Source: Meghimatium bilineatum
Lineage: Eukaryota > Mollusca > Gastropoda > Stylommatophora > Philomycidae
Reading direction: 5' to 3'
DNA: 64,000 bases
NCBI GenBank assembly: GCA_034231615.1
Contig: CM067306.1
Coordinates: 65,747,790-65,811,789 of the forward strand
The position numbers and the translations under genes were made by a program. The notes under the pieces are model-generated. The model ran no database searches and had not been told where the DNA came from. It saw only the letters and a program-made list of their open reading frames with translations. This document shows positions 8,865 through 63,895 of this stretch, piece by piece. Numbering within the stretch: position 1 is the stretch's first letter; every line of letters starts with the position of its first letter.

Positions 8865-9400
8865 CATCATCATCATCATCAGGTGCCATGCCGGCTGGCG
8901 TAGGCGATCATGGCTCTCCACAGCTGTCTGCCTCCAGTATTATGTGTCAAGCTTGCTGATGTTTCCCTGCCGTGCCAGGTTGTTAAACTGTCTAATATTT
9001 TATCACGTTGTCGCCCTCTGTCTCTGTTGTCTTCTTGCCTGTTGTGACTATGTTCTCCAAACCTGCCTGTCTCATGAAGTGACCAAAAAATGAAGATTCT
9101 ATTTTTCTTATATTATTGATTACGGTCCGTTTCGCATTTAACTCTTTCAACATCTCACATTAGTTTTTCTGTCAGTCCATGATATTCTCAGCATTCTTCT
9201 ATAGAACCACATCTCTGTTGCCTCTAATTTTCCACTTTCCAGTTTGTTTATTGTTCAAGACTCGTCGTATCCATATGTTAGTATAGGAGTTATATATCAC
9301 TGCAAACATAGCACCAGCACTCTCTTTCTCACCTCTAATGACAAGAGTAAGTATACAATCGAAAACGTTTTCTACTGAACTAAAACTGAGATCTAATCAG
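8865..9400 (-). mobile_element. LINE 3' half relic with (ATC)n tail
   Basis: On the minus strand it ends WRAMIAYASRHGT-stop followed by a GAT repeat (tcatcatcatcatc at about 8867-8881). Further back are SGKLEATEMW and TYGYDES-like pieces and GHFMRQAGLENIVTTG-like sequence. It is the same family as 26960-27240, 36795-36875 and 63410-63890. Confidence 0.75.
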
Positions 9401-9465: not shown

Positions 9466-10310
9466 ACATTATGCTTGGATTTATAGGAAAATTACGAAAC
9501 ATGATTTAAACACCAACTTCCTCTTCCTGAATAAATTTTAAAAAGTCGATGTTTCGCCCAAAATGCCTTTGTTAAGAAAGAGAACACAAAATACAACGGG
9601 TAGAAAAAAAAAAAAACATCAAAGGACACAAAAATTTAAAACTACGTTGTTAACAGGTTGAAAGGTTGATGCATGCTGATCATACTACGTGTTAACATTC
9701 GTCCTATGTTGTTCTTTTTTGTGAATAGTTTTCTACCTGTTTTTCTTTGGTTTTTCTTGATAAATACCTTCTGATCGAAACGTCGAATCTGAGCTCATTT
9801 TAATTATTCGTATCATTTTAGTATCCCGTAATTTCAATTTCTAGTGAAATAGTAAGTAAAAGTGTGATAATGTGTAAACAAAAATGGTCATGCACTCTGA
9901 ACCGCTATTTCGAAATGCAAAAAATTGCATACAATCGACGCATAGATAGATCATCGAAGGATCCACGTATGAGAATTGATTTTAGCGCAATAGAAAATCG
10001 ACCCCTTGTACCTACAACTCTAGCCAATTTTCTAACCACATCTCTAACACAATTATCATTTTCACGTGCACATGCCATTCAAAACTTCAAACTGGGACAA
10101 ATGAAAACCAAATTGAAAGTTTCTAATGACAAATGTGACAGAAGCTGGTGATTGGATCTTTGCGAATTTCAGGAACATTCTATAGTAGCGTACCGAAATA
10201 ATTTTTTCTGGATTTTGAAATGTATTACCTAGGGCAAGGGTTGGCAACCAGAACTACGCAGCTTGTAGACATAACATGTGCATATTTAGTTAGATACAGA
10301 TAAATAGATA
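9466..10310. other. No gene recognised
   Basis: Contains a 95-codon ORF (9864-10151, +) with no motif known to me. I see no supporting splice structure. Confidence 0.4.
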
Positions 10311-10311
10311 T

Positions 10312-10822
10312 ATTCCATGACAAGTTATGTGATTCTAGATCAGACTGGAAACTGATAAATTCCATGACAAGTTATGTGGTTCTAGATCAGACTGGAAATT
10401 GATAAATTCCATGACAGGTTATGTGGTTCTAGATCAGACTGGAAATTGATAAATTCCATGACAAGTTATGTGGTTCTAGATCAGACTGGAAATTGATAAA
10501 TTCCATGACAAGTTATGTGGTTCTAGATCAGACTGGAAATTGATAAATTCCATGACAAGTTATGTGGTTCTAGATCAGACTGGAAATTGATAAATTCCAT
10601 GACAAGTTATGTGGTTCTAGATCAGACTGGAAATTGATAAATTCCATGACAAGTTATGTGGTACTAGATCAGACTGGAAATTGATAAATTCCATGACAAG
10701 TTATGTGGTTCTAGATCAGACTGGAAATTGATAAATTCCATGACAAGTTATGTGGTACTAGATCAGACTGGAAATTGATAAATTCCATGACAAGTTATGT
10801 GGTTCTAGATCAGCCTGGAAAT
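10312..10822. repeat. 47-bp minisatellite, 11 copies
   Basis: Unit near attccatgacaagttatgtg, gttctagatcagactggaaa, ttgataa. Starts recur exactly every 47 bp from 10312 to 10782, and the copies differ at only a few positions. Confidence 0.96.
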
Positions 10823-25616: not shown

Positions 25617-28369
25617 GTAAGCTTCAGCCATTTATATTCATATTTATAACTATTTGTTATATCTCTCTTACCCAGGTGATTTAGGATTTGCCTACCAGAG
25701 TGTTAGCTTATCCGTTGTAATTGGACAATGTATGTCTCTGATGATGTAAGATTTCTGAAATAGCCTACTTGTCTGAAGATGCTTTAGACCGAACGCTAAA
25801 AATGAAGCCGTTAATAGTCATAGTTAGCAGCATCTCTTGTCGCAAATACAACTTTTAGTTACCTATAGTTTATTTTATATGAGGAGAGGGGGTAATCAAT
25901 CCCAATAGACGGTAACACAGATCTGGTGGATCTAAAGGATCAATGGGATATAGAGCGATCCTGTAGTGATTTTATGGGCAATACAAATGCCTTCAGTAGT
26001 TTGCTATTGCTTTCTAAACGGTCCGGATGCACAATTTCCTGTAGCGGGATTCGAACCCGGTGCCTTGGCTTTCACAGATGTGATTTGCACCACGCCGTTA
26101 CAGAGCCGTTGAAAATTACTCAATAAATAATGCTAGCAGTCACATGACTCAAACATGGAGTCCGACCTGTAACGGAGCGAATCAGGAGTCTGAATACTAT
26201 TTGCTGGCAATTGCGGTGGTCAAAAACACTACTGTCATTACTGTTCAATCCACTTGCAATATCGGACCGCAGATACTTTCATTACAGTTCACTCCACTTG
26301 CAATATCGGACCGCAGATACTTTCATTACAGTTCACTCCACTTGCAATATCGGACCGCAGATACTTTCATTACAGTTCACTCCACTTGCAATATCGGACC
26401 GCAGATACTTTCATTACAGTTCACTCCACTTGCAATATCGGACCGCAGATACTTTCATTACAGTTCACTCCACTTGCAATATCGGACCGCAGATACTTTC
26501 ATTACAGTTCACTCCACTTGCAATATCGGACCGCAGATACTTTCATTACAGTTCACTCCACTTGCAATATCGGACCGCAGATACTTTCATTACAGTTCAC
26601 TCCACTTGCAATATCGGACCGCAGATACTTTCATTACAGTTCACTCCACTTGCAATATCGGACCGCAGATACTTTCATTACAGTTCACTCCACTTGCAAT
26701 ATCGGACCGCAGATACTTTCATTACAGTTCACTCCACTTGCAATATCGGACCGCAGATACTTTCATTACAGTTCACTCCACTTGCAATATCGGACCGCAG
26801 ATACTTTCATTACAGTTCACTCCACTTGCAATATCCGACCGCAGATACTTCTTGGAATTTATTGCCAGGTTTCAAAATCAACTTTGGGCTGACATCTCGG
26901 ATGTCATAATAACATACCATGGACAGCTAGGAAAACTAATGCAGATGTTCTCATTGATGCTGGCGTAAAAAGATCAATCATATCAAACATTAGGGGCAGA
27001 CAGTCAAGGTTTCTAGGGTATGTGCTGAGAAGAACACAGCTTGAACACTTAATAACCACTGGAAAGATCAAGGGAGAAGAGATAAGGGACGACAAAGAGA
27101 AAAGTTACTAGATGGACTTGTATTGTGACACGGCAGAAACTCACCAACCGAGCTTATTGACAACACAAGAGACAGAGAGTCGTGGAGAAACATGATCGCC
27201 TACGCCAATCGGCATGGCACTTGATTGATTGAACATACGGGTTAAAGCAGCCAATGATGTTTTAGTAAATTTACCCGTTGTAATGTGAATATTTCTCCTT
27301 GGATATATTAATGTTATAGATAGGTTAACATGCGTGCCATTTTATTTTCTCCATGTCCCATATACTATAATTAGGTAGCAAATCCTGAACAGTCTTTCTT
27401 GCGACAATTTTCCTGCTTCTGTTAGTGTCATATTCTGGTGCTCTTTGATGTATTGCGTCCATCTTTCTCTTGGTCTGCATCTTGTTCGTCTCCCTGGCAT
27501 TAACCCCTCCATTATATTCTTCTCTAGGCTGTCATGACGTTATGTTTAATTTAACAGAATAGAAATATATGTAGGAATAATTAAAAAATCCAAATGATAT
27601 TTCTACAATAATGAAAATAAAGAAATACTAAATTGGCACAATTTTTGGAATGCATTAATTCGGAAGAAAGTAAACAACGTATTCGATGTCGTTGTGTCAT
27701 TAATCTAAATTTAATTAATTAAACTAATTATTTTATTAGTGGGTACAATCGATATTGCACAATACGAAGGATCGATATAGACGAAGTCGATTTCAGTAAA
27801 TATTGAAGGAAAATTCCTGTGGAATAATGGCTGAAAATCTCATTTGTACTGGCAGAGACCTGATGGCTTAATGGCACATTTGTCTTTCAAGTCCTCCAGC
27901 CTCAACAAGATATCCTAATTCGTAGTCGAGACGTCATTAATGAGTTTAATTTAATTTTGTTTGTGAAATTCGAGTTCTGTGACGAGTGCAATTTTACAAT
28001 GTAAATAAATGAAAATTAGAGTGTTTTAACTACTTCACTCCGACACGCTGTTAAAACAGCAAGTTATGCAAACTACTTTTGTTGGTAAGCCGTTGGCACC
28101 TCCGTTTTTTTGTAGATACTTATAACTACACTACGGCAACGTATCTTTGGGAGATAAAGAGTCTAGAATTTATTTGTCGGTGTCTTTTTCTCTTCTAGAA
28201 TTGTCCTTCATTTTCCAATTTCCAATCTAGATTTCTACTTATTTTTCCTGCGTTCGTTTTCAAACTCCTGCATGCTAGCAGAATGTAGTCCAAATAGCGG
28301 GAAGCTCTGTGTGCTAGCGGGTTATTTAGTTGGGGGATATTTACAGCAGAAGTCACTGTTCTAAAAGTA

Positions 28370-46400: not shown

Positions 46401-49400
46401 ACTGCATATAGCGAATTTATTTTATTACATAAATATTTATTTCGGTATGACCAACTTGTTATAGTAGGTTATGGCTGTATAATAATCACAAATGTATATT
46501 TTTCCAACTTCCAATCCCATTTATCACCGAAATTGATAAGATCTGAAATGTTCAGGCAAGCCAATAAATCATCAATTTATCTGACTACTAAATATATTTC
46601 CGAACAATTCACTTTAATAGTTCAGCTATCGTAACCAATAAATACCGAGAAATAGTTCTCTAGGGTCATTTCTAAGAAAATTATACGCCAAGGAAATTGA
46701 GTCTGATTGGGGAATTCCCAATAGGCTACTGTCATTTGGCGTAAATTATGGCATTGAGTATCGCGCGTAACCTATGACTTTTGGCAAGTTCTGTGAATTG
46801 GTTGGTGGAATGAAGAGAAAGACTACGATTGAGATAGGTTAAAATGTGTTATCGATGAGAGCTACAGAAGCAGCTACAATCGATTGGTTGATCTAAAGTG
46901 TGAAAAATAAAATTGAAAAGGTTAAAGAATATGGAAAATGTGTGTCTCTTAACAATAACGTTTGTGGTCCCTAGCAAAATGAATGTTTAAATTAATTATT
47001 GAATAATTTTCAATGTAATTGTTTATATTAATTAAACCTAAAATAATCAAGCAGGCACGTATTTCAACCAAGAACCGTAAATCCTATCCTAACTTCAATA
47101 GAGTAGACATTACTTTATTTTTTTTTTACTGATTATATTTATTAATATAACTACAGTGGATTTCTATCTATGGTTGAAAAAAAAACGTGCCTCATTTAAA
47201 GAGGCTTTAATCACATACTTACCAGGAGCTTTCATATGTTGATATTCAATAGCAAAAAGTATAGAATTGTTCCCCTTTGTTCGATATTTATAGTTATCTC
47301 CCATAATGTAGATAAATACATTTTATAATTATCTCCCACAACGTAAATATATAAGGTGTTCTATTGTAATTATCTCCCATACTGTAAATATATAAAGTTT
47401 ATATTTTTATATTTTCACAGTTTTTATCGTGTGTTGGAGTCCGTACTTCGTGTACAATCTGTTGGACGTCTATGAACTCATACCTTTCAGCAATCCTATA
47501 TCAACCTTAATCCAGTCCGCAGCACCTCTCAACTCAGCTGCCAACCCGATCATTTACGGAATCTTCAGCACACGGATATGCAAAAATTTAAGGTAATGTC
47601 AGGTATGCAGCTGATGTTAGAGTGTGGCTGGTGCCATAACACGGTCGAATAGATATTCAAGGCCTTTGAATGTGTCACTCCAGTAGGATGGTCCGTGTTT
47701 TTAATTGATTTGCGAGAACAATATACTCAAGGTTAACAATGACAAGTACGGATCATCCACCGGAAGTGACCAGTTCGAAGGACTTGTATCTCTACTCAGT
47801 TGAATCAAGAGCATGTGAACATCTATAAATAGCTTATTAACGGGAATTTCCATTGACTCATTTTTGTGTAATTAGTGATAAGGATTAAGTAACTCATCCT
47901 TAGCTGCTGTCCCCACATCTAAGGCTGGTTGCAACGAACATCCAACAGCGTCTTTCTCTTACCTTGGTAGTGCACTCTGCTAGACTATAATATGTCCATC
48001 TCACAATAATTCCCTCTCACTTATATTTCTGCCTACCCATTGAACAAATCCTTCAAGTTATCTATCATATAAAACAGATTGAAAAGTTACGGATATAGTG
48101 TTGAGATTGTAGTTAGGAGAGGATGGATATATAGTGTTGAGATTGTAGTTAGGAGAGGATGGATATAGTGTTGGGATTGTAGTGAGGAGATGACGGATAT
48201 AGTGTTGAGATTGTAGTGAGATGACGGATATAGTGTTGAGATTGTAGTTAGGAGAGGATGGATATAGTGTTGAGATTGTAGTTAGGAGAGGATGGATATA
48301 GTGTTGAGATTGTAGTTAGGAGAGGATGGATATAGTGTTGGGATTGTAGTGAGGAGATGACGGATATAGTGTTGAGATTGTAGTGAGATGACGGATATAG
48401 TGTTGAGATTGTAGTGAGATGATGGATATAGTGTTGAGATTGTAGTTAGGAGAGGATGGATATAGTGTTGAGATTGTAGTTAGGAGATGACGGATATAGT
48501 GTTGAGATTGTAGTGAGGAGATGACGGATATAGTGTTGAGATTGTAGTAAAGTTGGCATGGATATAGTTTTGATATTTTAGCGAGAAAGTAGCTGAGAAA
48601 TAAAGTGTGACAATAGAAAAAAACAAGCAGAAAGAAAAGACAATGCATGACATTTATCAGATACTGGGCAGTTCAACAGTTAGGAAGAAAGTCAGTAACA
48701 AAATCTGATGAGATCATTAAGATAAGCTGTGATGACAGCATGAATCAATCTTAACACAGCACATAGTGTTGGCAGCCGCGGTGTGATGTACAAGATTGTT
48801 GGCAGCCGCGGTGTGATGTACAAGTTTGTTGGTAGCCGCGGTGTGATGTACAAGTTTGTTGGTAGCCGCGGTGTGATGTACAAGTTTGTTGGCAGCCGCG
48901 GTGTGATGTACAAGTGTGTTGGTAGCCGCTGTGTGATGTACAAGTTTGTTGGTAGCCGCGGTGTGATGTACAAGTTTGTTGGTAGCCGCGGTGTGATGTA
49001 CAAGTTTGTTGGCAGCCGCGGTGTGATGTACAAGTTTGTTGGTAGCCGCGGTGTGATGTACAAGTTTGTTGGCAGCCGCGGTGTGATGTACAAGTGTGTT
49101 GGTAGCCGCGGTGTGATGTACAAGTTTGTTGGTAGCCGCGGTGTGATGTACAAGTTTGTTGGTAGCCGCGGTGTGATGTACAAGTTTGTTGGCAGCCGCG
49201 GTGTGATGTACAAGTGTGTTGGTAGCCGTGGTGTGATGTACAAGTTTGTTGGCAGCCGCGGTGTGATGTACAAGTTTGTTGGTAGCCGCGGTGTGATGTA
49301 CAAGTGTGTTGGTAGCCGCGGTGTGATGTACAAGTTTGTTGGTAGCCGCGGTGTGATGTACAAGTTTGTTGGCAGCCGCGGTGTGATGTACAAGTTTGTT

Positions 49401-51110
49401 GGTAGACGCGGTGTGATGTACAAGTTTGTTGGTAGCCGTGGTGTGATGTACAAGTTTGTTGGTAGCCGCGGTGTGATGTACAAGTGTGTTGGTAGCCGTG
49501 GTGTGATGTACAAGTGTGTTGGTAGCCGCGGTGTGATGTACAAGTGTGTTGGTAGCCGCGGTGTGATGTACAAGTTTGTTGGTAGCCGCGGTGTGATGTA
49601 CAAGTTTGTTGGTAGCCGCGGTGTGATATAAAAGTGTGTAGGTAGCCGCGGTGTGATGTACAAGTGTGTAGGTAGCCGCGGTGTGATGTACAAGTGTGTA
49701 GGTAGCCGCGGTGTGATGTACAAGTGTACGGGACTCATTGAGTTGCAACTTAACTCTAGAACTATTCTTTGAGCTGCATTCAACATTAACTGCTTCAAAA
49801 ATGAATTGCAATACTGTTTCCATTTCATCAGAGCCATGATTATTGCAAAGAATGTTGTAAAGTTTATGGAAGCTTACATTTATACATAATGCAGTTGATG
49901 TCTGATAAGTTATGTAATATTTTTTCTTCAAATATTGAGTTCATATTGACAGCAAATTTATTTGGTCTTTCTTTATTTTTCTTGCAGACGAATCCCCATG
50001 CCGTCTTGTCTACGTGAGATGGTATGCCGCTGCAAGGAAACCAAAAAATGCAATAGACTGACCTTCAGGGGTCGGAATCACAAATTTATGGCAAGCCAGA
50101 CTACAGATCCGACAGTGACAACATTCGAAGCACAGAAGAGAAGCAACCAGTGTCAAGCAGAAACTCGCTTATCTCCCTTGAAGCCAAGCGACCGTCGCTA
50201 TGCGACATTGATTACAAAACGCTTCCTTGACCGGACAATTTTCGCTGAAACTGCTGGCGATCTTCTAAGACAAAGAGATCTGAATAAAAAACAGAGAGTT
50301 TTCAAGATTCCACGACACAAGTGGATTTCTGACAAGATTCGCTGTGAATACGAAATGGCGGTCATCACGAAAAAGACTTTAGCACGCCATGTTGTCAGCA
50401 GCGGAAGTGATGACTCCACAGGAACTACAGATTCTAGCGGGCGCACAGTACAATTTCACAGTTCAAAACTTATTTTGGAAAAAGTTTTGTCAGAAAAAAA
50501 GGACAAAACTATCTCATCAGTTATAAAACCCCCAAAAAGTAAAAGTATCAAAAAATTTAGTGGAGACTGTGATAGGAAAGAGGATATTTTTGTTGATAAA
50601 AACGTTCTTCCAAAAAATTGTGAAAAAATTGACAAATTTCACCAAAACAAATTACAGGTTTCTACCACAATTTCTGCTGCTGATAAAATGTCTGAAACTT
50701 CTGAAATGCAGAGTGAAAGTAAAGAACTTAATATTCCTATCAAAGTTGTAGAAAATCCACGTGTGCTAGGCACGTGCGAACTCAAGTTGGAACAAGAATC
50801 AAAGTACATTTCTGACAAAGGGAATGAACTCGTTAATAATTTATTAAGGGACAAAACCCCTTCATGTAGCAATATCAATAGATCAGTTGTTAATTTTGTT
50901 GGGATTGTTAAAAGTAAATCAACAGAAATGCAAAGCGATGCTCCTGAAAAACACTTAGCAAATAGACGCCCATCTGGTGTTCCAACCGTCAGACGGCGAT
51001 TAACATCGGACGAGAATGAAATTTTAAATAACGCGGCGGAAAAATGGCTGATTAATGAGGTCAAGGCTGATGAATCTAGTGTCCTCTGATCTGGGTTTAA
51101 AAATAAAACT
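25352..51110 (+). CDS. CCAP receptor-like GPCR gene, 8 coding exons
   Basis: Joining 25509-25616, 40744-40882, 41349-41546, 42053-42195, 44324-44474, 45567-45680, 47421-47592 and 49988-51089 gives 2127 nt, 708 residues and a TGA. All introns are GT/AG and phases match. The product is a plasma-membrane class A peptide receptor. Visible landmarks are three N-glycosylation sequons (N9, N19, N26), TM1 GN (N54), TM2 LAD (D83), TM3 Cys110, DRY 134-136, TM4 Trp160, ECL2 Cys185-Trp186, TM5 Pro210, CWSP 289-292 and NPIIY 326-330. The ECL2 CWVDFP...WHW block, SPYFVYNLLDVY in TM6 and APLNSAANPIIY in TM7 are the pattern I know from arthropod and mollusc CCAP receptors and vertebrate NPSR. The ligand is inferred from family. 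Family members are usually about 400-500 residues; here a 367-residue tail makes it longer. A conopressin/vasopressin-type receptor is a weaker alternative. Confidence 0.85.
25885..26115 (-). mobile_element. tRNA-derived SINE
   Basis: The minus strand begins with a tRNA-like head (about 26112-26036): ctgtaacggcgtggtgcaaa as A-box region and accgggttcgaatcccgc as a strong B box. A body follows with gaaagcaatagcaaactact and cccattgatcc. The head lacks a clean acceptor pairing, so it is a SINE and not a functional tRNA. It lies in receptor intron 1. Confidence 0.65.
26236..26850. repeat. 44-bp minisatellite, 14 near-identical copies
   Basis: Unit tccacttgcaatatcggacc, gcagatactttcattacagt, tcac. 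Starts run every 44 bp from 26249 to 26821. Only the first and last copies differ. As 44 is not a multiple of 3 and no stop occurs, all three + frames are open for over 600 bp; these are not genes. Confidence 0.98.
26960..27245 (+). mobile_element. LINE 3'-end relic with TGAT tail
   Basis: The plus frames read SIISNIRGRQSRFLGYVLRR, TQLEHLITTGKI, DKGRQREKLLDGL, WRNMIAYANRHGT-stop and a ttgattgattg tail. Same family as 63410-63890. Confidence 0.75.
27380..27550 (-). mobile_element. LINE C-terminal relic
   Basis: The minus strand reads IMEGLMPGRRTRCRPRERW, IKEHQNMTLTEAGKLSQ, the linker that follows the RT thumb in several LINE families. Confidence 0.6.
27551..28250. other. Intron 1, nothing recognised
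   Basis: AT-rich unique-looking intron sequence. Confidence 0.5.
28255..28330 (-). mobile_element. GAA-tailed repeat family fragment
   Basis: gcgttcgttttcaaactcct, gctagcagaatgtagtcc and aatagcgggaag match the end of the family on the minus strand. Confidence 0.55.
28373..28420. repeat. (AG)n then (AAAG)n microsatellite
   Basis: About 17 AG units followed by aaagaaagaaag. Confidence 0.95.
28725..28845. repeat. ~57-bp direct duplication
   Basis: ttactgactcggggctctgc, cctcgtgtagaatcttagag, ctttgcggatat occurs twice with two or three changes. Confidence 0.9.
29060..29640. repeat. 16-bp repeat with higher-order structure
   Basis: The basic unit is tcattccgtcagtcaa. Variants (gattcagatag, attattccgtcagtta) recur in the same order, making a higher-order unit of about 100 bp. 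Confidence 0.92.
30205..30310 (-). mobile_element. LINE C-terminal fragment
   Basis: The minus strand reads VEWLLEQRAEHLWECPTCCE, parallel to QAEHIWESPQCCDAC at 11750. Confidence 0.5.
30590..30800. repeat. (GATA)n-like tract
   Basis: Imperfect gata/tagata repeats for about 200 bp. Confidence 0.9.
30801..31324. other. Intron 1, nothing recognised
   Basis: A 105-codon ORF at 30790-31107 has no motif and sits next to low-complexity sequence. Confidence 0.4.
31325..31625 (-). mobile_element. GAA-tailed repeat family, longest copy
   Basis: Starts cttcttcgtcttctgcgttc and runs through gcaggatttagtccggagaa, gctgcgatatgtgcgc, cttcagcacggct, and a block with tggaaggtaaatagtgttgc shared with the complement of 43630-43665. 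Confidence 0.68.
31640..31830. mobile_element. Foldback/MITE-like repeat
   Basis: cccgtagataagggggtatt at the left and cgccccttaccgaagacgtg plus tctacgg at the right form imperfect inverted ends about 190 bp apart. caccccaacccccctc-like sequence is internal. Confidence 0.45.
31868..31990. repeat. ~36-bp tandem repeat, 3 copies
   Basis: Unit near agtaacttgaaaatatacac plus gtcggacgtcttgac. Confidence 0.9.
31991..32924. other. Intron 1, nothing recognised
   Basis: A purine-rich stretch at 32520-32720 gives overlapping antisense ORFs (67-109 codons) that look like composition artefacts. Confidence 0.4.
32928..33068. repeat. 33-bp minisatellite, about 4 copies
   Basis: Unit near acctgtgatcaacgttccct plus ctaagacaagagc. 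The period of 33 keeps frames open on both strands. Confidence 0.96.
33069..34515. other. Intron 1, nothing recognised
   Basis: No coding motif or repeat structure seen. Confidence 0.45.
34520..34730. repeat. ~54-bp minisatellite, about 4 copies
   Basis: Unit near ctctcatccactctccacta, atgctagctagccttcaacc, tctgttccata. The last copy loses one gctag. Confidence 0.95.
34731..36790. other. Intron 1, nothing firm
   Basis: Contains a G-run with ggttgaacatccc at 36165-36195, like the foldback repeats, and a tataaatctcgg element at about 36583 with no attached gene. ORFs of 60-85 codons lack motifs. Confidence 0.35.
36795..36880 (-). mobile_element. LINE 3'-end fragment
   Basis: cacatgccatgtcgagtggc and ataggcgatcatgtttctct are the complement of the WRNMIAYATRHGM end of the 63410-63890 family. 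Confidence 0.65.
37050..37600. repeat. 42-bp minisatellite, about 13 copies
   Basis: Unit near tgattgggctaggattattc, ttgtgtctcgtccatgtgtt. At least three variant types (ggtctag/gggctag, tcgtcc/tcgttc, gttatg/ggtatt) alternate along the array. Confidence 0.96.
37601..40740. other. Intron 1 distal part, nothing recognised
   Basis: AT-rich. Holds a 12-base C-run at 38695, a 14-base G-run at 40010, and a ~32-bp near-repeat of attggaccctatcaaacaag just before exon 2 (40625-40710). No coding motif. Confidence 0.45.
40744..40882 (+). CDS. Receptor exon 2: TM1, ICL1, start of TM2
   Basis: The acceptor is ccccag at 40738-40743 and the donor is g|gtgtgt at 40883, phase 0 in and 1 out. It encodes 46 residues with a hydrophobic TM1 carrying the GN signature (N54), a basic ICL1 (SGRKSR), and FFIMHLALA, the start of TM2. 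The Asp of LAD is split across the next intron. Confidence 0.88.
41210..41340. repeat. 26-bp minisatellite in intron 2, about 4 copies
   Basis: Unit near atctctccacacaactaatc plus tacttc. It ends 9-10 bp before the exon 3 acceptor and so forms most of its pyrimidine tract. Confidence 0.93.
41349..41546 (+). CDS. Receptor exon 3: TM2, ECL1, TM3, DRY
   Basis: The acceptor is cccccag at 41342-41348 and the donor is gcg|gtaagt at 41547. It encodes D83 to S148: the rest of TM2, ECL1 with Trp103, the conserved Cys110, and TM3 with TYASTYMLVSLSIDRYDAV. The run Q-V-V-T-Y-A/S-S-T-Y-x-LVSLSIDRY is the strongest marker for the CCAPR/NPSR clade in this gene. Confidence 0.92.
42053..42195 (+). CDS. Receptor exon 4: TM4 and ECL2
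   Basis: The acceptor is tttctag at 42046-42052 and the donor is cag|gtacat at 42196. It encodes residues 149-196: TM4 with Trp160 and Pro169, then ECL2 with the disulphide Cys185 in KQCWVDFP and an aromatic WHW just before TM5. Phase is 1 in, 0 out. Confidence 0.9.
42505..42560. repeat. 11-bp tandem repeat, 5 copies
   Basis: Unit acaaccatcac. Confidence 0.92.
42600..42732. repeat. 18-bp minisatellite, about 7 copies
   Basis: Unit gatcagtgattattgatt, in receptor intron 4. Confidence 0.95.
43292..43520. repeat. 32-bp minisatellite, 7 copies
   Basis: Unit near ctcaatctacaaatgtatct plus gtaacattgagg. Very homogeneous, in intron 4. Confidence 0.96.
43610..43885 (+). mobile_element. GAA-tailed repeat family copy
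   Basis: Contains tgtttaccttccatgcatg, tatgtcaggccaaaatgtg, cagatatcgcagc, ctgaactacactcggctgat and tgagtttgagaaggc, the complement of 31325-31625 in the same order, in intron 4. Confidence 0.65.
44324..44474 (+). CDS. Receptor exon 5: TM5 and ICL3 start
   Basis: The acceptor is cttctacag and the donor is gag|gtgagg at 44475. It encodes residues 197-246: TM5 with Pro210, the IIASCYISIIYIIWSK block typical of the family, then a His/Pro/Arg-rich start of ICL3. Confidence 0.9.
45010..45160. repeat. 16-bp minisatellite, about 9 copies
   Basis: Unit agccagtaatgtgctc, in intron 5. Confidence 0.95.
45190..45270. repeat. G/C-arm foldback repeat
   Basis: ctgtagataagaggtttggg, gttcaacccgcatctacg, cagggggttcacccacatct. 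Short inverted pieces like 9405-9465 and 31640-31830. Confidence 0.5.
45400..45542. repeat. ~20-bp AT-rich tandem repeat, about 6 copies
   Basis: Unit near ttagttaattaacgaacaaa, just before the exon 6 acceptor at 45566. Confidence 0.9.
45567..45680 (+). CDS. Receptor exon 6: ICL3 and TM6 start
   Basis: The acceptor is tttgacag and the donor is g|gtgagt at 45681. It encodes residues 247-284: the Arg-rich ICL3 (RDRRQETGRGIIPQAKIRTIK) entering TM6 with KMTLIIVI. Lys/Arg before TM6 and the IPxAKxRTIKMT pattern are as expected for the CCAPR clade. Confidence 0.88.
45681..47420. other. Receptor intron 6
   Basis: Holds an AT run at 45940-45956, an (ATC)n run at about 46360-46398, and a 140-bp stretch at 46040-46180 (cgctgcctaatgagttagca, cctaaggtgtccatgg) that looks like an unassigned interspersed repeat. 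Confidence 0.5.
47421..47592 (+). CDS. Receptor exon 7: TM6, TM7, helix 8
   Basis: The acceptor is ttttcacag and the donor is ag|gtaatg at 47593, phase 1 in, 2 out. It encodes residues 285-341: VCWSPYFVYNLLDVY (CWxP motif), ECL3, then TM7 with PLNSAANPIIYGIFSTRIC. Helix 8 follows, with Cys338 a possible palmitoylation site (inference). Confidence 0.92.
47920..48035. mobile_element. Interspersed repeat, copy 2
   Basis: Matches 20325-20460: ggttgcaacgaacatccaac, gtgcactctgctagactata, tgtccatct, in the same order and orientation. Confidence 0.5.
48078..48570. repeat. 33-bp minisatellite, about 14 copies
   Basis: Unit near gatggatatagtgttgagat plus tgtagttaggaga. Variant copies with gatgacgg and a shortened form. 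In receptor intron 7. Confidence 0.95.
48765..49730. repeat. 30-bp minisatellite, about 32 copies
   Basis: Unit near ggtagccgcggtgtgatgta plus caagtttgtt, with point variants (ggcagcc, gtgtgtt). The period of 30 keeps three frames open, two of them on the minus strand and one on the plus; none is a gene. GC-rich CCGCGG in each unit contrasts with the AT-rich surroundings. It ends about 260 bp before the exon 8 acceptor. Confidence 0.98.
49988..51089 (+). CDS. Receptor exon 8: very long cytoplasmic tail
   Basis: The acceptor is ttttcttgcag at 49977-49987, and phase 2 is matched to exon 7. It encodes R342 to L708 without interruption, stopping at TGA 51087-51089. The first 30 residues are Cys/Arg-rich (PSCLREMVCRCKETKKC), as after helix 8. 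The rest is Lys, Ser, Thr, Glu and Asn-rich and looks disordered, with many possible phosphorylation sites. No domain is recognised. The final residues ESSVL fit a class I PDZ ligand (S/T-x-hydrophobic). CCAPR tails known to me are usually far shorter. Confidence 0.85.
51102..51107 (+). promoter_or_regulatory. Candidate polyadenylation signal AATAAA
   Basis: An AATAAA hexamer lies 13 nt after the receptor stop codon. This would give a very short 3'UTR, so downstream signals could be used instead; only transcripts can decide. Confidence 0.35.
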
Positions 51111-51579: not shown

Positions 51580-52590
51580 GAAGTATGTTATGTTATGTTC
51601 CTCCAGAGCCATAGGTGGCGCATAGGGCAGAAACCATAGCCTTCCATTTCTGTCTTTGTGTTGCCAGGTCTTTCAATTGTTGCGTGTTGTTTAGGTTCAT
51701 TGACATGCCTTCTCTATTAATGGTTCTTCGTAGAGTTTCTCTAGGTCTCCCTCTTCTTCTTACTCCGGGTGGCACCCAATATAGTGACTGATGGGGAATT
51801 CTTAGGTTGTTCATTCTGAGAACATGGCCGATGTAAGTCCAACGCCTTTGTCTAATGAAGGAAGATATATAGGTTTGTTTGCTTTCCTCTCTTATAGTAG
51901 TGTTAGATTTAAAGTCACTCCACTTAACGTTCAGAATGGTACGTAGGCATTTGTTTTCAAAGGAGTCGAGTCTTTTATCTGTGGCTTTTGTGGCTTTCCA
52001 ACTTTCGCATCCATATGATAGAATAGGGATGATGTTGGAGTTAAATAACTTGAGTTTTGTGGTGTTTCTTAGTGTGTTTGACGTCCATATGTTGCGTAGT
52101 TTATTGAAAGCACCCGCTGCAAGGGCAATACGGTGTAAAATTTCTTTTGATGAGTCTCCATCCAATGCTAGATTGGTGCCTAAATATGTAAAATTGTTGA
52201 CTTTTAATAATGGAACATTTTGAATTTCTATGTTGTCGTTGGATCTCGTAAAATCTAGTATATGAGTTTTTGATGTGTTGATTTTCAACCCTATCTGATT
52301 TGAGTAGTGTTGGAGATTGTCAAACTTAGATTGAGCATCTGTGTGGTTTGCGCTCAAAAGGGCCAGGTCATCTGCGTAGTCAAGATCTTCGAGAACGGTA
52401 TTATTAATCCATTTTATTCCTGTCAGCTCATTTTCAGTGCTCTTTCTCATGACCCAATCAATAGCGACGCAGAAAAGTAATGGGGACATGATGCATCCTT
52501 GTTTAACGCCCGTAACAACTTGGAACCATTCTGACTTCTCAGTGTTTATGAAAAGTATGAAGAACAATATTATTGTTTTCAACATTTTCT
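51580..52590 (-). mobile_element. 5'-truncated LINE with open reverse transcriptase ORF
   Basis: On the minus strand an open frame of about 330 codons ends at 51593. It contains RT motifs GVKQGCIMSPLLFCVAIDW and YADDLALLSAN (catalytic YADD), a thumb-like region with FTYLG and GCESWK, then GHVLRMNN and the RRRGRPR basic motif near the end. The first 20 or so residues look like non-element sequence joined to NTEKSEWFQVVTG, so the element is 5'-truncated near 52560 and lacks the endonuclease and fingers. The 3' end carries a short AACAT repeat (TTATGTTATG on +). The frame is free of stops, so this is probably a recent insertion. It lies tail-to-tail with the receptor gene. Confidence 0.85.
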
Positions 52591-56354: not shown

Positions 56355-58154
56355 CATGACTGAAGCAGCTTACATATAAGTTTGGATGTACATGTAGGCA
56401 TGACTGAAGCAGCTTACATATAAGTTTGAATGTACATGTAGGCATGACTGAAGCAGCTTATACATAAGTTTGGATGTACATGTAGGCATGACTGAAGCAG
56501 CTTACATATAAGTTTGGATGTACATGTAGGCATGACTGAAGCAGCTTACATATAAGTTTGGATGTACATGTAGGCATGACTGAAGCAGCTTACATATAAG
56601 TTTGGATGTACATGTAGGCATGACTGAAGCAGGTTACATATAAGTTTGGATGTACATGTAGGCATGACTGAAGCAGGTTACATATAAGTTTGGATGTACA
56701 TGTAGGCATGACTGAAGCAGCTTACATATAAGTTTGGATGTACATGTAGGCATGACTGAAGCAGCTTACATATAAGTTTGGATGTACATGTAGGCATGAC
56801 TGAAGCAGGTTACATATAAGTTTGGATGTACATGTAGGCATGACTGAAGCAGCTTACATATAAGTTTGGATGTACATGTAGGCATGACTGAAGCATCTTA
56901 CATATAAGTTTGGATGTACATGTAGGCATGACTGAAGCATCTTACATATAAGTTTGGATGTACATGTAGGCATGACTGAAGCAGCTTACATATAAGTTTG
57001 GATGTACATGTAGGCATGACTGAAGCAGCTTACATATAAGTTTGGATGTACATGTAGGCATGACTGAAGCAGGTTACATATAAGTTTGGATGTACATGTA
57101 GGCATGACTGAAGCAGGTTACATATAAGTTTGGATGTACATGTAGGCATGACTGAAGCAGGTTACATATAAGTTTGGATGTACATGTAGGCATGACTGAA
57201 GCAGGTTACATATAAGTTTGGATGTACATGTAGGCATGACTGAAGCAGGTTACATATAAGTTTGGATGTACATGTAGGCATGACTGAAGCAGGTTACATA
57301 TAAGTTTGGATGTACATGTAGGCATGACTGAAGCAGGTTACATATAAGTTTGGATGTACATGTAGGCATGACTGAAGCAGGTTACATATAAGTTTGGATG
57401 TACATGTAGGCATGACTGAAGCAGGTTACATATAAGTTTGGATGTACATGTAGGCATGACTGAAGCAGGTTACATATAAGTTTGGATGTACATGTAGGCA
57501 TGACTGAAGCAGGTTACATATAAGTTTGGATGTACATGTAGGCATGACTGAAGCAGGTTACATATAAGTTTGGATGTACATGTAGGCATGACTGAAGCAG
57601 GTTACATATAAGTTTGGATGTACATGTAGGCATGACTGAAGCAGGTTACATATAAGTTTGGATGTACATGTAGGCATGACTGAAGCAGGTTACATATAAG
57701 TTTGGATGTACATGTAGGCATGACTGAAGCAGGTTACATATAAGTTTGGATGTACATGTAGGCATGACTGAAGCAGCTTACATATAAGTTTGGATGTACA
57801 TGTAGGCATGACTGAAGCAGCTTACATATAAGTTTGGATGTACATGTAGGCATGACTGAAGCAGCTTACATATAAGTTTGGATGCACATGTAGGCATGAC
57901 TGAAGCAGGTTACATATAAGTTTGGATGCACATGTAGGCATGACTGAAGCAGGTTACATATAAGTTTGGATGCACATGTAGGCATGACTGAAGCAGCTTA
58001 CATATAAGTTTGGATGCACATGTAGGCATGACTGAAGCAGGTTACATATAAGTTTGGATGTACATGTAGGCATGACTGAAGCAGCTTACATATAAGTTTG
58101 GATGCACATGTAGGCATGACTGAAGCAGCTTACATATAAGTTTGGATGCACATG
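56355..58154. repeat. 44-bp minisatellite, 41 copies
   Basis: Unit catgactgaagcagcttaca, tataagtttggatgtacatg, tagg. Starts run every 44 bp from 56355 to 58115. Variants cluster in blocks: cagctt copies at both ends, a long run of caggtt copies in the middle, two catctt copies, and gatgcacatg copies only near the right end. Confidence 0.98.
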
Positions 58155-62406: not shown

Positions 62407-62408
62407 TA

Positions 62409-63324
62409 CGAGGCGTGTTCAAATGAAAACGGGACTTGTGGATTTATTTAAAAAGTATCATACGCAATTTAATATTTTCAACGGAATTGAACAAAGCAAC
62501 CACTTGTGAATAAGAATGCACCTGGGTTCATCAGAAAAAATCTCCGTATGCATTTAGGCAAGCATCCCACTGTTTAGGTAGACGTCGAATGCCGTCCGAG
62601 AAAAAGTTGCGTGGCTGTTCTCTGAACCATGTGGTCACCGCTGTCTTCACGTCTGCGTCGCTGTTGAAACGCTGTCCCTTTAGTGCTTTCTTCAACGGTC
62701 CGAACAAATGGAAATCACACGGGGATAAATCGGGACTATAGGCTGGGTGATGAAGAACTTCCCAATTCTTCTTTGCCAATGTTTCCTGCACAATTTTTGC
62801 GACGTGTCAACATCAATGCCGCCCATTATAAAGACACTTTAGACAAGCTGCATAAGGCCATCAAGGCTAAGCGACCAGGCAGACTTTCTCAAGGTGTGAT
62901 TCTTCTCCACGACAACGCTCGTCCGCACGTCGCAAAAATTGTGCAGGAAACATTGGCAAAGAAGAATTGGGAAGTTCTTCATCACCCAGCCTATAGTCCC
63001 GATTTATTCCCGTGTGATTTCCATTTGTTCGGACCGTTGAAGAAAGCACTAAAGGGACAGCGATTCAACAGCGACGCAGACGTGAAGACAGCGGTGACCA
63101 CATGGTTCAGAGAACAGCCACGCAACTTTTTCTCGGACGGCATTCGACGTCTACCTAAACAGTGGGATGCTTGCCTAAATGCATACGGAGATTTTTTCTG
63201 ATGAACCCAGGTGGCATTCTTATTCACAAGTGGTTGCTTTGTTCAATTCCGTTGAAAATATTAAATTGCGTATGATACTTTTTAAATAAATCCACAAGTC
63301 CCGTTTTCATTTGAACACGCCTCG
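62409..63324 (+). mobile_element. Palindromic mariner derivative with TA duplication
   Basis: Flanked by TA at 62407-62408 and 63325-63326. The left arm 62409-62806 is the reverse complement of the right arm 62926-63324, with one substitution and a one-base indel in about 398 bp. The 119-bp middle continues the right-arm reading frame. The right part (about 62808-63201, +) encodes the C-terminal half of a mariner transposase: ILLHDNARPHVA, then 34 residues to the Asp of PCDFHLF (the D34D spacing), ending GDFF-stop. The left arm carries the same C-terminus on the minus strand (62531-62791). The N-terminal half, with the DNA-binding domain and first catalytic Asp, is absent, so it cannot encode its own transposase. 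Both ends carry what should be the 3' terminal repeat, so it may still be mobilised in trans. Confidence 0.85.
62807..63201 (+). pseudogene. Mariner transposase, C-terminal half only
   Basis: The open frame from the loop of the palindrome to TGA 63199-63201 holds catalytic Asp 2 (HDNARPH) and Asp 3 (SPDLFPCDFHL) of a mariner DD34D transposase. It is not preceded by the N-terminal half; the upstream frame is antisense arm sequence. A Ser-to-Phe difference separates the two arms in the SPDLxPCDF motif, where the left arm keeps the Ser. Confidence 0.8.
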
Positions 63325-63339
63325 TAACAAAACACAATT

Positions 63340-63366: not shown

Positions 63367-63409
63367 TACAGGCAAAAATAACATTCACAAAAATGAAAAA
63401 TATACTGTG

Positions 63410-63895
63410 TAATATGACCTTGACATTAGAGAAGAGAAAGTTCTCTAGTGCTATGTAACCCCTATACTAACATATGGATGCGAGTCTTGGACAATAAACA
63501 AACCGGAAAGTGGGAAATTAGAGGCAACAGAGATGTGGTTCTACAGAAGAATGCTTAAAATACAATGGACTGCCAGAAAAACTAATGTAGAGGTGTTGAA
63601 AGAGTCAAATGCGAAACGGACCTTAATCAACAATATAAGAAAAAGGCAATTTTCTTTTTTCTGGGCCACTTCATGAGACAGGCAGGTTTAGAGAACACAG
63701 TCACAACAGGCAAAATTGAACGCAACAGAGACAGAGGGCGACAACGTGAGAAAATATTAGACAGTTTGATAACCTGGTACGACAAGGAAACAACACCGAC
63801 CTTGATACATAATACTGTGGACAGAGAGCTGTGCAGAGCCATGACTGCATACGACAGCCGGCATGGCACCTAATGATGATTTATATATATATATA
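63410..63895 (+). mobile_element. LINE 3' half relic
   Basis: The plus frames read PILTYGCESWTINKPESGKL, EATEMWFYRRMLKIQWTARK, NVEVLKESNAKRTLINNIRK, then after a +1/-1 slip GHFMRQAGLENTVTTGKIER, RGRQREKILDSL, LCRAMTAYDSRHGT-stop, and a TGAT plus (TA)n tail. Only a frameshift in the poly-T/C region near 63650 breaks it. Confidence 0.8.

Follow-up and report, generated by a model that had tools for sequence, protein, structure and literature searches.

Transposon derivatives that form hairpins are suspected triggers of silencing, and the classic case is one rearranged locus, Mu killer. This derivative of the maize element MuDR is internally deleted and partially duplicated; both of its terminal inverted repeats (TIRs) come from the same end, and two partial copies of the transposase gene meet in inverted orientation. 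Mu killer silences its parent genetically and is described as a single locus, each half of which has 1.298 kb of the mudrA end, with an unsequenced centre (PMC3440606). MariN1, a mariner-derived MITE of the tree shrew, is present in high copy number and forms hairpins; it is described as comprising terminal inverted repeats, and its small-RNA reads are reported on the self-complementary strands and not on the loop (PMC4408798). Galileo and the other Foldback elements, which belong to the P superfamily, have long, internally repetitive TIRs that are nearly identical within a copy (98-100% in Galileo, PMC3573991), with target duplications of 7-8 bp for Galileo (PMC4168063). A palindromic, transposon-related repeat is also on record from C. 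elegans (Dreyfus and Emmons 1991, as cited in PMC3212995).

The window (the whole 64,000-nucleotide stretch of Meghimatium bilineatum DNA that we analysed) contains a palindrome that is very probably a member of a family of palindromic mariners that are mobile and non-autonomous. Like Mu killer, it has two copies of one TIR and an inverted partial transposase gene, in another superfamily and another host. Whereas Mu killer is described as a single locus and silences its parent, the palindrome is scattered over the genome in at least 74 copies, with TAs at their flanks, and is likened to Mu killer in architecture. It shares with MariN1 a mariner origin, a high copy number and the capacity to form a hairpin, but its arms carry 91 transposase codons. 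Membership of the Foldback group (Galileo/FB type) was considered and rejected, as the palindrome is flanked by TA only, encodes part of a mariner transposase, and has arms that hold no direct repeats of at least 20 nt. In the literature on palindromic, hairpin and foldback elements and on Mos1 ends, mainly open-access, we found no description of this exact make-up. Set against what is known, the new element is a palindromic mariner that is mobile and present in many copies, and its arms, which include transposase code, seem to overwrite one another.

Features of the palindrome are listed in Table 1.

Table 1. Coordinates of the palindromic mariner and its parts in the window
Feature	Position	Strand	Basis
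TA target-site copy, left	62407..62408	.	Sequence; TA on both sides in 66/69 two-ended copies
Left arm, inverted copy of the mariner 3' end	62409..62806	-	Parent alignment
Left-arm content: TIR, 3' UTR and last 91 transposase codons (antisense)	62409..62806	-	
31-bp terminal inverted repeat, left	62409..62439	+	Same 31 bp at both ends in 7/8 parents
GTG microhomology at the arm/loop breakpoint	62804..62806	+	Parent GGTG/TCAAC versus inverted arm CGACGTG/CGG
Loop, transposase code that immediately precedes the right arm, as in the parent	62807..62925	+	
C-terminal part of the transposase, about 130 of 354 codons up to the stop	62806..63201	+	
Right arm, original mariner 3' end	62926..63324	+	Comparison with parent
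31-bp terminal inverted repeat, right	63294..63324	-	
TA target-site copy, right	63325..63326	.	

The element, from 62407 to 63326, is bounded by TA on each side and consists of two inverted arms, 398 nt (left) and 399 nt (right), around a loop of 119 nt; with their TAs the arms measure 400 nt (62407-62806) and 401 nt (62926-63326). The alignment of the arms bears out the inverted arms of about 398 bp and the 119-bp loop that an earlier note had read from the sequence. That note counted one substitution and one indel between the arms: the single-base indel stands, while there are two substitutions, for an identity of 99.25%. The TA it saw at each terminus is present, and the sequences beyond the two TAs are unlike each other. 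Comparison with the parent described below upholds its view that both termini are the same mariner 3' end. Read together, loop and right arm give a mariner's 3' half in its usual order, with the open reading frame ending at 63201, and the left arm repeats the final ~400 bp of this half in inverted orientation.

The last 130 residues of the frame match the Mos1 transposase (best E-value 3.3e-31), and the frame contains a match to the Pfam family DDE_3. Of the three catalytic aspartates, the right half retains the second and third; the first is absent together with the N-terminal part, so the fragment would not make a working transposase. With no intact transposase, many copies and ends in common with its parent, the element qualifies as non-autonomous and as a MITE, in agreement with the earlier description of half a mariner. 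It is longer than most MITEs. We found no significant match to other mariner pieces in the window, and a scan against viral contigs, in which only close relatives are detectable, gave no match confirmed by tblastn. Elsewhere in the window, a 331-aa open frame (51593-52588, minus strand) matches the reverse transcriptase family RVT_1 and DUF6451, and there are many minisatellite arrays, at 56355-58154, 48767-49725, 26230-26850 and 10302-10822; examples are a 44-bp unit in 41 copies and a 30-bp unit in 32 copies, the latter with a strong GC skew at 48-50 kb.

We searched the window's own genome (1.61 Gb, 32 contigs) for further copies, as the earlier note had advised. An exact match to the 31-nt arm/loop junction is found at 73 genomic places, against none for the reversed control pattern, which excludes chance. 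A whole-element search yielded 1317 candidates at first look; 40 were scored, and every one of these proved to be a near-complete copy. Our analysis covers 74 copies, the 73 exact junctions and one copy with a change in the junction (L028). Both ends are kept in 69 of them, the truncated ones being L034, L064, L083, L084 and L094, and the two-ended copies are mostly ~919 or ~910 nt long, with a few shorter.

Palindromes are a known class of artefact, and one rival reading is that the palindrome is an assembly artefact, a hairpin or chimaera made during sequencing. We give this explanation next to no credence and reject it: 74 copies sit at distinct places with one junction, private mutations and distinct length classes, and empty sites exist. 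A second possibility is that two mariners inserted tail to tail and then suffered a deletion, separately at each locus, which would be expected to yield the same gross layout. This is very improbable and was likewise rejected, because the breakpoint is identical at 73 places, the arms end at TA and the flanks differ. The mobile palindromic family is characterized by two 3' TIRs per unit and by many separate TA sites with a single common breakpoint.

Among the 69 two-ended copies, 66 start and end with TA (the exceptions are L016, L068 and L085). The third nucleotide beyond the TA of these 66 copies is A or T in every case on the left and in 65 on the right. We compared the joined flanks of the 69 copies with the loci fetched. 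L095 has the clearest empty site, found in the window itself at 63370-63653 (284 bp, 93.7% identity, ungapped, a single TA), in a repeat adjoining the window's palindrome. For L015, empty sites are found in L034 (89%) and L090 (88%), with one TA at the join and gaps elsewhere; the empty site of L090 in L034 has TC where TA is expected. These TA sites and empty sites form the pattern of mariner insertion and are unlike an assembly artefact, and together with the 31-bp TIR they are the target and ends of a mariner. Neither outcome that the earlier note had named as refuting was seen: other copies and a parent exist, and the paralogous empty sites speak against an artefact. A repeat is common to L015, L034 and L090. 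L005, L018, L068 and L081 sit within arrays of one related tandem repeat, on different contigs or at different places, so these four may not all be independent insertions. Two inverted repeat copies occur in the window at 63447-63880 and 8872-9301 (86% identical); by eye they resemble the end of a LINE-type reverse transcriptase, and the first contains the L095 empty site.

The parent, which the earlier note had proposed to seek, is a Mos1-like DD34D mariner of ~1348 bp found as full-length elements. In an exact-pattern search of the genome, the loop has a different upstream neighbour at 565 places; among the matches listed, this neighbour is GAACCTGGTG, in one case GAACTTGGTG, preceding TCAACATC. 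We sampled 20 of these 565 loci, all on contig C1 because the list follows contig order. The distance between ends is 1345-1355 bp in eight and 883-932 bp in nine; three were unassigned, one of which (L055) has an end at the full-length distance under a looser pattern. Six of the parent loci (L036, L047-L049, L052 and L054) represent a 932-bp non-autonomous derivative with one internal deletion. An open frame of 354 aa is found in five of the 20 loci and one of 353 aa in another. An open frame does not equal activity here, since two of the five (L038 and L050) have changes at otherwise conserved residues. The protein of L040 (P0001) matches Mos1 of Drosophila over residues 5-354 (E-value 1.1e-49) and the Pfam families Transposase_1 and DDE_3, while no HTH family scored above the cut-off in the Pfam search. 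Its HDN-to-PCD spacing, counted by eye, is 34, which places it in the DD34D group of the Tc1/mariner superfamily. The TIRs, compared in eight copies chosen from the 20 fetched, are identical at both ends over 31 bp in seven; their sequence is unlike that of the Mos1 TIRs given in PMC3419177.

Exact patterns gave 411 places for the central part of the parent, 231 for the junction of the ordinary, 932-bp internal-deletion derivative, 73 for the palindrome and 1775 for 3' subterminal ends, all of them lower bounds since exact patterns undercount. The 3' ends thus counted far exceed the sum of the full-length, deletion and palindrome classes by the same kind of count, and further short derivatives or mutated copies of the parent probably exist. 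When 100 of the 1775 ends, on C1, were inspected by eye, three inverted pairs within 2 kb were seen, all with the known junction.

How might the palindrome have arisen? At the breakpoint the parent reads ...GGTG/TCAACATC and the inverted strand of the arm ...GCGACGTG/CGGACG, while the palindrome reads ...GCGACGTG/TCAACATC, so that GTG is common to both as a 3-nt microhomology. The natural reading, which rests on these 3 nt, is that the template was switched while the element was being copied or a gap repaired. In the sequence of events that we infer, a strand copying inward from the 3' end of a full-length mariner would have switched at the GTG match and then copied back, leaving the 3' half joined to its own final ~400 bp in inverted orientation. 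The product may since have been mobilized by the transposase of full-length relatives. In the 519-bp right half, divergence from their own consensus has a median of 0.19% and a mean of 0.19% in the 20 parents, and a median of 0.20% and a mean of 0.31% in the 69 palindromes, in samples that were picked by exact patterns and are thereby biased towards young copies. The two consensus sequences differ at one site over this half. The low divergence agrees with the young age assigned earlier. In two copies, L008 and L009, each arm is identical to the parent consensus; judging from the alignment, these copies represent the founder state.

We aligned the arms of the 69 copies with those of the 20 parents. 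At column 270 of this alignment all 20 parents have T, and the palindromes (arm/arm) are A/A in 50 copies, A/T in seven, T/A in six, T/T in five and A/gap in one. The T/A state is found both with and without a deletion of nine bases, which 25 of the 69 copies show in the right arm (three of them through a larger deletion); 22 copies lack the nine bases in the right arm only and three in both arms. Among 135 rare changes, defined as those seen in no more than two copies, 14 are present in both arms of one copy, across 10 copies. The positional chance expectation is 0.10, and when right arms were shuffled among copies the mean was 0.40 and the maximum 7, with 14 reached in none of 2000 shuffles. 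Since four of the 14 lie together as a single block in L095, the number of separate symmetric events is about 11. This block, which both arms of L095 contain, appears to have been copied from sequence ~20 nt distant within the arm.

Derived changes that recur in both arms indicate that the arms appear to have been copied onto each other. The arms may overwrite each other within an element, by gene conversion or hairpin repair, and near-identity would be maintained in this way. The main rival to conversion is that symmetric changes are polishing or consensus errors, which may have carried some of the changes from one arm to the other. Short reads cannot distinguish the arms, and one-base indels are among the symmetric changes (L086 and L091). 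We nevertheless consider it unlikely that such errors explain the symmetric changes as a whole: the loss of nine bases, shared by both arms in three copies and confined to the right arm in 22, tells against it, and the 121 of 135 rare events that are retained in one arm only speak against wholesale homogenization. These same one-arm events mean that conversion, if it is the cause, is far from complete, and nine of the 69 copies have identical arms by the rare-change analysis.

A possible reason for the spread of the palindrome is that two 3' ends make a better substrate for the transposase. Mos1 with two right ends (IRR) was 26 times more active in vitro than the natural arrangement (PMC4505599), and its maximum rate was 5e-4 for 3T3 versus 2e-5 for 5T3 (PMC3419177). 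However, with parent TIRs identical over the first 31 bp in seven of eight copies, only subterminal sequence could differ between the parent's ends and 'two strong ends' is no simple explanation; moreover, the ordinary deletion derivative is about three times commoner than the palindrome by exact junctions (231 versus 73). We therefore regard this explanation as improbable. The main 'function' of the palindromic mariner is most likely selfish spread.

Could the palindrome also act on its parent? Its RNA has a predicted fold of -797.7 kcal/mol with 427 pairs, and a read-through transcript would be a long hairpin with 91 codons of the parent's transposase. Since the arms include these codons, any siRNAs would match the parental mRNA, and it is a plausible hypothesis that the hairpin could dampen the parent by RNA interference. 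A stronger form of this idea, in which the hairpin RNA is made and diced, the parent transposase is lowered and the element is a spreading regulator of the Mu killer kind, can be held only tentatively and strikes us as unlikely. In its favour are the shared architecture of Mu killer, with two copies of one TIR and an inverted partial transposase gene (PMC3440606), the siRNA-like reads of the mariner-derived hairpin MITE of tree shrew (PMC4408798), and the near-identical 400-nt arms made up largely of transposase code. On the other side, open-frame parents with ~0.2% divergence are found at five of the 20 sampled loci, so any silencing has not purged the parent family, and a short-lived parasite requires no such role.

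The earlier interpretation, which included such silencing, is partly supported as a whole, and holds for structure, origin and youth. Beyond it, the palindrome belongs to a mobile family in which at least 74 copies have a breakpoint in common, and its arms appear to be copied onto each other. Taken to its full extent, the idea becomes that of a transposon-borne silencer spread by its target's own machinery, in which arm conversion would keep a good Dicer substrate in place with the parent still active. We consider this improbable; if true, it would amount to a mobile Mu killer. As it stands, the palindrome has the architecture of Mu killer, yet it is mobile, young and multicopy, with copies in the putative founder state and a possibly active parent in one genome. 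This combination makes it possible to test directly if a hairpin that silences is able to spread in the manner of a transposon, and at what frequency one arm of a mobile palindrome is overwritten by the other.
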